DNA from: Synechococcus sp. Nb3U1
Lineage (GTDB): Bacteria > Cyanobacteriota > Cyanobacteriia > Thermostichales > Thermostichaceae
Assembly: GCF_021533835.1 (NCBI RefSeq)
Contig: NZ_JAKFYQ010000002.1
Location: 62,001-126,000, forward strand
DNA length: 64,000 bases
Reading direction: 5' to 3'
Shown here: positions 55,598 through 58,566 of the stretch, piece by piece
How the letters are laid out: each line of letters starts with the position of its first letter
Numbering within the stretch: the stretch's first letter is position 1
Made by a program: the position numbers and the translations under genes
The notes under the pieces: model-generated
The model's input: only the letters and a program-made list of their open reading frames with translations
What the model was told of the DNA's origin: nothing
Databases searched by the model: none

Positions 55598-55801
55598 CAA
55601 TGGCCTAAAGGGCCTAAGGCACATTGTGCTGTGTGAGGGGTGCTGTGTGAGTGTTTAACTGTTTGCATCTTGCATCTTTGTGCTGGTCAGTTGCCGATTC
55701 ACTGAGCCATTATCATCCCGTTCTTTCCACCAAGGCTCAGAGGTACAACGGATCGACTGATCGGCAGGCTGTGTCGGTGATTGTTCAGGAGTCATTTGCT
55801 G
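55598..55801 (+). promoter_or_regulatory. Upstream region of the D1-like gene
   Basis: Contains direct copies of GTGCTGTGTGAG at 55626-55637 and 55640-55651 and two copies of TTGCATC near 55665-55680. I could not settle a -35/-10 pair, so the promoter is only assumed to lie here. The direct repeats could be a regulator site. An AGGAG ribosome site lies about 10 bp before the ATG at 55802. The rest of the 395-bp gap (55407-55578) shows nothing clear. Confidence 0.35.
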
Positions 55802-56872
55802 ATGAGCATTCTGATTCAACGCTCCTCTAGCACAACAAGCAATTGGAGCTGGGATGGTTTTTGCCGATGGATTACCAGCACTGAAAATCGACTGTATATC
55901 GGTTGGTTTGGGGTGCTGATGATCCCCACTTTGCTGGCGGCGGCTATTTGTTTTGTGATTGCCTTTATTGCCGCCCCACCTGTAGATATGGATGGGATCC
56001 GTGAGCCAGTGATCGGCTCCTTGATGGGGGGAAACAACTTCATTTCGGCGACAGTTGTACCCACCTCAGCAGCTATTGGCCTCCATTTTTACCCGATTTG
56101 GGAAGCGGCTTCGTTGGATGAATGGCTATATAACGGCGGTCCCTACCAACTGATCGTGCTGCACTTTTTAATCGGGGTGTGGTGTTATCTGGGGCGGCTG
56201 TGGGAGCTGAGCTATCGGCTGGGGATGCGCCCCTGGATTGCGGTGGCCTTTTCTGCACCTGCGGCGGCTGCCACATCGGTGCTGTTGGTATACCCGATGG
56301 GTCAAGGCAGCTTCTCCGAAGGCTTGCCTTTAGGAATTGCCGGAACCTTCCATTTCATGCTGGCCTTCCAGGCTGACCACAATATCTTGATGCATCCCAG
56401 CAGTTGGCTGGGGGTAGCGGGGGTATTGGGCGGAGCGCTGCTGGCTGCCATGCACGGTTCTTTGGTGACCTCCAGCTTGATTCGAGAAACCAGCGAAATA
56501 GAATCTGCCAATACCGGTTATCGCTTCGGGCAACAAGAGATCACCTACAACTTCCTAGCAGGACACTATAGCTTCTTGGGACGGCTGTGGATACCCAGCT
56601 TCGGCTTCAAAAACAGCCGTTCGGTGCACTTTTGGATGGCAGCACTGCCCACCGTTGGCATTTGGGCAGCAGCGATTGGGATTGGCCTGATGAGCTTCAA
56701 CCTGAATGGGTTGAATTTCAACCAGTCGATTTTGGATAGCCAGGGGCATTTCATTGGCACCTATGCCGATGTGCTCAACCGCGCCAACCTGGGGCTCCAA
56801 GCGATGCATGCTCCCAATGCCCATCATTTCCCGATGCTATTGGCAGCAGAAGAAACTCAATCCATTAGCTGA
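55802..56872 (+). CDS. psbA: Divergent (rogue-type) photosystem II D1 protein
   Basis: A 356-residue D1-family protein with the five-helix fold and intact ligands to accessory chlorophyll (His118), iron/quinone (His215, His272) and the tyrosine Yz/His190 pair (Tyr161, His190; standard numbering, three less than here). Functional residues have changed: Asp170 to Glu, Glu189 to Asp, Glu333 to Ala, Asp342 to Leu, His198 (P_D1 axial ligand) to Ser, Gln130 to Leu, Tyr147 to Phe, Ser264 (Q_B site) to Gly, with one inserted residue just after His252. The C-terminal extension after Ala344 is only 8 residues. It cannot assemble a normal Mn4CaO5 cluster, so a non-oxygen-evolving role like that of rogue D1 is inferred. 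Start ATG 55802 with an AGGAG site. Confidence 0.9.
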
Positions 56873-57026: not shown

Positions 57027-58566
57027 ATGGAACTGTTTGACTATGTGGTGTTGGGTGCTGGATTGGGGGGACTGGCAGCTGCGGCCTGCCTGAGCCGTCA
57101 GGGATCCCGGGTGGCGGTGCTGGAGAAGCACTATTTGCCCGGGGGCTGCTGCCATACCTTCGACTATGGGAATTATCGCTTTTGTGCAGATGTGCACTAC
57201 ATTTCCCAATGTGGGCCTGGGCAAGCGATTGATCAGTTCCTCAACTATATTGGCCGTGAGGTTGAATTTAATTCACTGGATCCCGATTGTATTGACCGGG
57301 TGATCACTCCTGAGGTGGAGTTTGCCATTCCCCTAGGCTGGGAGAACTTGCGCGACCGTCTTTTGGAGCAATTTCCAGAAGAAGCACTGGCCATCAATCG
57401 CTACTGCGATGAAATTCAACGCTTGCATAACGATATTCACCACCTCAACCAAGAGGTGCGTTGGTACGACCCGAAATGGTACGACTGGCTAAAACTGCCC
57501 AAGTATTTCAACCTTTTCCAGAAGCGCCACTGGACACTCCAGGATCTCTACAATCACGTCGGCCTTTCTCCTAAATTACAAGCGGTGTTGGCGGGCCAAA
57601 GTGGAGATTATGCCCTCCCCCCCAAAGAGATCGCCCTGCTCACTCATACGGCGCTGGTTTGGGATTATTCTGAGGGGGCCTATTATCCACGAGATCACTT
57701 CAAGGGGTTTGTAGACACGATTGTGGATGCCATCCTGCAACAAGGGGGCACGATTCGCTATTCCACCTCAGTGGAGCACATTGAAGTCAACAAAGGTAGG
57801 GTGGAGTGGGTAACAGCAGGGGGCACGAGTTTTGTTGCTAGCAAAGCCTACATCAGCGATCTTGACCCGAAACTGACGGTAGAGCTGATGCACAGGGGAT
57901 CCCTGAGCCAAGGGGAACGGCAGCGCCTCACGAGCTATGAATATTCCGCCAGCGCCTTTAACCTTTACCTGGGTTTGGATAGCCGCTTTAACCCTGCCAG
58001 ATATGGCATCGGCAACTGGAACATCTGGTACTATCCCGACGGGGATCTAAACCGGGCCTACGACCAACAACTGGCGGGCAACCTGGAGCACCCCTGGATC
58101 TTCCTCTCTTGCCCAACTCTCAAATCCACCGCACCGGGCATGGCCCCCCCCGGGCATCATGTGCTGGAGATTGCCACCGTTTGCCCCCTACGAACCCTTT
58201 AAGCAACTGCATGACGAGGATCCCAAAGCCTACAAGGCCAAAAAACGGGAGGTCTACCAGGCGGTGATGGCCAGCGTGCGGGATCGGATCCCGGATGTGG
58301 ATCGCTACATCCGCATGAAGGTGTACGGCACCCCCACCACCAGCGAATACTTTTTGGGCCAACCGCGGGGCAATATTTACGGCGCCAAGTTGGTGCCCCA
58401 ACAAGTGGGGCTGCATCGCCTCGGTTATGAAACGGAACTGCCCAATCTGTTTTTGGTGGGGGCCAGCGCTGGGTATCCCAGTGTGCCGAGGGTGATCAGC
58501 AATGGCATGGATGTGGTGGAGCTGATCACGGACAAACAGGTGCGGCGTGCTCCTGTAAGGGTCTGA
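57027..58566 (+). pseudogene. RetSat/carotenoid-isomerase-like oxidoreductase, frameshifted
   Basis: An FAD/NAD(P)-dependent oxidoreductase of the retinol saturase/CrtI-like family: dinucleotide motif VVLGAGLGGLAAAACLSRQG, EKHYLPGGCCHTF, FCADVHYISQCGPGQ, and C-terminal SEYFLGQPRGNIYGA and NLFLVGASAGYPSVP. The first frame ends at 58202 (VCPLRTL) and the second continues (PYEPFKQLHDEDPKAY). Removing one C from the five-C run at 58184-58188 restores ATVCPYEPFKQL. So this is either a pseudogene or a one-base sequence error. Start ATG 57027 with a GGGAGGA site. It follows the D1 gene by 154 bp on the same strand. Confidence 0.85.

Follow-up and report, generated by a model that had tools for sequence, protein, structure and literature searches.

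The psbA-like gene at 55802..56872 (+) of the window, the whole 64,000-nucleotide stretch of DNA analysed here, raises the question of what kind of D1 protein lacks both ligands of the manganese cluster and the ligand of the P_D1 chlorophyll, and what role such a protein may play. The gene is an intact frame of 356 amino acids, running from an ATG at 55802 to a stop at 56872 and preceded by a ribosome-binding-like site, AGGAGT (55787..55792, +), that is present in all six members of the genus; comparison of the upstream regions across the genus revealed little conservation beyond this site. The TIGR01151 psbA profile scored it at 591.7 bits against a cut-off of 596.05, just under standard psbA. 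Four matches were found in this genome: the rogue psbA studied here, one standard psbA (L002, 73% identity to the rogue) and two psbD copies. PADLOC returned no match. An AlphaFold2 model built with a ten-sequence alignment reached a pLDDT of 36, and no reading was drawn from it. The D1 numbering was checked against L002, in which each numbered position carries the residue expected of a standard D1; the Thermosynechococcus sequence that served as numbering reference adjoined the database-derived L023 in the tree.

Alignment with L002 confirmed every substitution listed by an earlier note made from the letters alone (D170E, E189D, E333A, D342L, H198S, Q130L and S264G), together with the retention of Tyr161, His190, His118, His215 and His272. 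At the manganese site, Asp is replaced by Glu at position 170 (56318..56320, +; Glu in 39/53 rogue D1s), Glu by Asp at 189 (56375..56377, +; Asp in 27/53), Glu by Ala at 333 (56810..56812, +; Ala or Ser in 52/53) and Asp by Leu at 342 (56837..56839, +; Asp in 0/53), the last of which abolishes the LDLA motif close to where the C-terminus is processed. As in nearly all rogues, H332 and H337 remain, and the manganese site is thus only partly stripped. Position 264 of the Q_B pocket, normally Ser, is Gly (56603..56605, +; Gly or Ala in 49/53, S264 being replaced in 50/53), and position 130, where Gln or Glu normally forms a hydrogen bond to Pheo_D1, is Leu (56198..56200, +; Leu in 21/53). Y_Z (Tyr161; 56291..56293, +, from the alignment with L002 and others) and H190 are retained, and the residues at the pheophytin and quinone sites are for the most part unchanged. 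Since the states at 170, 189, 333, 342, 264 and 130 are common among the 53 rogues, the changes at the Mn-ligand, Q_B and pheophytin sites typify the rogue group rather than this gene, and E189D and Q130L do not extend to the whole genus, E189 and Q130 being retained in four of the six orthologues. The changes at the Mn ligands, position 130 and S264 are typical of Group 2 and do not set the protein apart from rogue D1; only the loss of His198 is unusual.

The family placement drew on a named collection together with 390 genomes of cyanobacteria, from which 150 distinct D1-like sequences were gathered, counting the reference (81 standard, 53 rogue and 16 ChlF, labelled from residues 127/128 and 333/342), a sample that is large, not exhaustive, and that may miss divergent rogue copies scoring under standard D1. 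Two G0-like proteins (L172/L173) were added apart from the 150. In the tree, the rogue rows formed a starred branch (95/96) that includes this gene, the six genus members formed one clade (100/99), and ChlF was separate (100/100). The 333/342 states both labelled the rows and define the rogue test, and the tree supports the grouping independently; the residue pattern agrees with that of rogue D1 at positions 130, 147, 170, 181, 264, 333 and 342. Because the G0 pair and the D2 outgroup are very long branches, the placement of G0 within the rogue branch is not trusted. A standard Group 3/4 D1 was rejected on the missing Mn ligands and the sub-threshold TIGR01151 score, and so was a G0 D1 of the Gloeobacter kind, characterized by H332/H337 loss and a D2-like C-terminus, as H332/H337 are kept here and L172/L173 are clearly different. 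The gene is the rogue/sentinel (Group 2) psbA of a cyanobacterium of the Thermostichus type. PMC11304991 reports both Group 2 and Group 4 psbA in Thermostichales. Separately, the sample contained rogue psbA genes of other cyanobacteria whose matched region is interrupted by a stop codon (L083/L170 in G361, L062 in G319 and L166 in G167), the frames of L083 and L166 ending near residue 344, which suggests that the C-terminal extension is missing, and a D1 from a Chroococcidiopsidaceae MAG (L092) with Glu170 and every other Mn ligand standard.

A pigment-modifying photo-oxidoreductase akin to chlorophyll f synthase was also considered. ChlF (super-rogue D1, Group 1) is likewise a D1 relative without Mn ligands, and it shares Phe147 and the retained Y_Z-H190 with the rogue D1. 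However, residues 127-128 are Leu-Gly here, in place of the Q127-D128 of ChlF, H252 is kept where 16/16 ChlF sequences have Gln, S264 is replaced, and the gene falls outside the ChlF clade; ChlF itself retains H198, as PMC10535343 also states. A motif scan detected Q127-D128 in neither this genome nor eight other Thermostichales, and the flanks of the rogue psbA are carB and lysC, not a far-red gene cluster. On the motif scan and the tree, ChlF identity was rejected, and we consider a ChlF-like activity very unlikely.

His198 is the axial ligand of the P_D1 chlorophyll. It was kept in 81/81 standard D1s, 16/16 ChlF proteins, 46/53 rogue D1s and both G0-like proteins; its retention is a trait of D1 in general and no published criterion for Group 2. 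The seven D1s without it all belong to Thermostichales, with Ser in six Thermostichus and Gln in genome G008, an outgroup from this order, the remaining 143 D1s of the set having His. In the present gene, position 198 is encoded by AGT (56402-56404, +, by alignment), and positions 197-199 read Ser-Ser-Trp (56399..56407, +), where other D1s have Phe/Leu-His-Met/Gln. Within the D1 set, Ser198-Trp199 occurred only in the six genus members, in all of which Ser198 is encoded by AGT or AGC, while position 197 is a variable small residue; the genus-specific columns further include 197, 199, 274, 285, 288 and 313. As Ser198 occurs in six separate genomes, it is not a sequencing error. In the best tree, G008 stood apart from the Thermostichus clade (97/90), and a joint clade was not rejected (p-AU 0.269), so that one or two losses of His198 are both compatible with the data. 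Masking of positions 197-199 missed 9 of 79 rows, none of which was a Thermostichus rogue row or the rogue row of G008. Compensation by His181 was judged unlikely, as His181 is common in rogues with His198 and three of the Ser198 genus members have Tyr181. The loss of His198 is shared by the entire rogue lineage of Thermostichales, which are hot-spring cyanobacteria, and is not peculiar to this genome.

Each of the five other genus genomes carries one orthologue (L005-L009), 86-92% identical to the present protein. Pairwise dN/dS by the Nei-Gojobori method was 0.045-0.075, with dS reaching about 1.8 and its higher values close to saturation; this shows that the rogue psbA is maintained. A degenerating gene or a sequencing artefact might be suspected given that other genes of this assembly are frameshifted (nifH and the gene at 57027-58566), but the intact frame, the strong purifying selection and the presence of Ser198-Trp199 in six separate genomes leave this explanation a negligible chance, and the orthologues and dN/dS refute a pseudogene or error. 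The rogue psbA lies between carB and lysC wherever both flanks lay on the stretch examined; carB was not found on the G005 stretch examined. At window positions 57027-58566 (+), we observed a carotenoid-desaturase-like FAD oxidoreductase gene, which follows psbA and is split by a frameshift near a C run (about 58140). Its counterparts in G005 and G002 are single frames, whereas G001, G003 and G004 lack the gene at this locus; with only three of six genus members having it next to psbA, a functional link between the two is weakened.

Among known systems, the closest are the rogue psbA genes of Synechococcus JA-3-3Ab (CYA_1748) and JA-2-3B'a (CYB_0216), to which we provisionally assign G001 and G004, respectively. 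These orthologues are 86% identical to the present gene and have Ser198-Trp199 and carB/lysC neighbours, but they differ in Q130, E189 and Tyr181, and no FAD-oxidoreductase gene comes after their psbA as it does here. PMC4477158 names both as rogue psbA, describes a transcript pattern resembling that of genes for nitrogen fixation and puts forward sulfide oxidation as a function. Other Group 2 rogue/sentinel D1s, of the Cyanothece PsbA4 type, fall in the same clade and have the same Mn, Q_B and pheophytin residue pattern, whereas the 46 rogues outside Thermostichales all have His198 and, at position 199, Met (45) or Gln (1) but never Trp. According to PMC9640542, the PsbA4 protein of Cyanothece occurs in darkness, deletion of psbA4 in Cyanothece has mild effects only, and Synechocystis with PsbA4 only is not photosynthetic. 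L002, this genome's standard D1 (Group 4), is of the same family and differs from the rogue in keeping all Mn ligands, His198, Ser264 and Tyr147. The rogue gene was thus already known, and the loss of its P_D1 ligand appears unremarked in the literature covered, where no mention of a natural D1 without His198 was found; key papers lay outside that search, and an earlier report is possible.

Among the partner proteins, D2 keeps His197 and CP43 keeps the GETMR segment corresponding to E354/R357, and with these intact the remaining photosystem II core looks normal. Several CP43-like antenna proteins (IsiA/Pcb type) were also seen beside psbC, at G000:C1:782275-784895, 1044186-1045133 and 1502547-1503359. 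With regard to nitrogen fixation, nifH scored above the cut-off in G001, G003, G004 and G005 and occurred as two frames in the present assembly, G000 (G000:C1:712478-713294, L035), where one extra G is seen by eye near L035:1504; as nifH is intact in the four genus relatives, this split may be an assembly error. No nifH above the cut-off was found in G002, a draft, or in G008, a single contig estimated to be complete. A rogue D1 without His198 therefore also occurs in a genome lacking nifH, and the absence from G008 and G002 indicates that the tie of rogue D1 to nitrogen fixation is not universal.

Taken as a whole, the best explanation, to which we give a probability of roughly 0.72, is that the gene encodes a Group 2 non-oxygen-evolving D1 which in Thermostichales has also lost the P_D1 ligand His198. 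The present data contribute the sequence, the family placement, the lineage-wide His198 loss, purifying selection and the intact D2-His197 and CP43 Glu354/Arg357, and published work contributes the transcript pattern and the finding that a strain of a different species with rogue D1 only is not photosynthetic. A non-oxygen-evolving role is likely. The mild effects of psbA4 deletion in Cyanothece and the absence of nifH from G008 and G002 count against this reading. The rogue D1 would replace the standard D1 beside the usual D2 and CP43 under conditions where oxygen would be harmful or undesired, as in the dark, under anoxia or during nitrogen fixation, and if it assembles into photosystem II here, the resulting core would have Y_Z, the non-heme iron and a Q_B site but no working Mn4CaO5 cluster, serving as a non-oxygen-evolving placeholder or a low-yield reaction centre. 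P_D1 would probably still be bound, through Ser, Gln or water, and its potential may be changed, perhaps lowered, which would limit damage from un-reduced P680+. The alignment and tree that the earlier note had called for placed the gene among the rogues, outside standard D1 and ChlF: rogue D1, one of the options it named, was the right family, its reluctance to put ChlF first was justified, and a subunit of a silenced photosystem II became the best-supported role, whereas its other idea, a novel photochemical enzyme, found no support.

Alternative accounts concern the electron donor and the meaning of residue 198. A photosystem II containing the rogue D1 could oxidise another donor such as sulfide and feed nitrogenase or carbon fixation without producing oxygen, as proposed for the orthologues on transcript timing in PMC4477158, and the largely retained Y_Z, H190, pheophytin and quinone positions would suit such a function. 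That proposal was itself a hypothesis, however; we identified no sulfide-binding feature, nothing near the gene points to sulfide use, and a lowered P680+ potential would neither require nor prove a sulfide donor, which makes this explanation quite unlikely. We also considered that Thermostichales may possess a dedicated anoxygenic photosystem II, with an asymmetric special pair of lower potential, running or recombining safely without the Mn cluster and possibly using a non-water donor; this is a speculative extension that we regard as unlikely.

Neutral drift of residue 198 where tuned P680 energetics are unneeded would bear on this position only and is compatible with the non-oxygen-evolving role. 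According to PMC8517396, mutants at this His in Synechocystis had a P680 potential lower by ~80 mV (Diner 2001, cited therein), but no effect could be discerned in the equivalent mutants of Thermosynechococcus (Sugiura 2008, cited therein); that review calls the mutated residue His198 of D2, whereas the title of the cited Diner paper says D1-His198. The reportedly unchanged Thermosynechococcus mutants suggest that Ser198 may be nearly neutral, and His198 may have been lost independently to Gln and to Ser, given that G008 lies outside Thermostichus in the best tree. Drift is harder to reconcile with the observation that no other lineage among the 46 rogue D1s lost His198, and that Ser198 and Trp199 are fixed across the genus while position 197 varies. 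We therefore hold drift at this residue to be a serious possibility, at somewhat less than even odds.

For the group 2 D1 that in Thermostichales has also lost His198, a natural lineage without the P_D1 histidine and under purifying selection represents a ready test of the role of this ligand for P680, and the same lineage is a test of the purpose of the rogue photosystem II.
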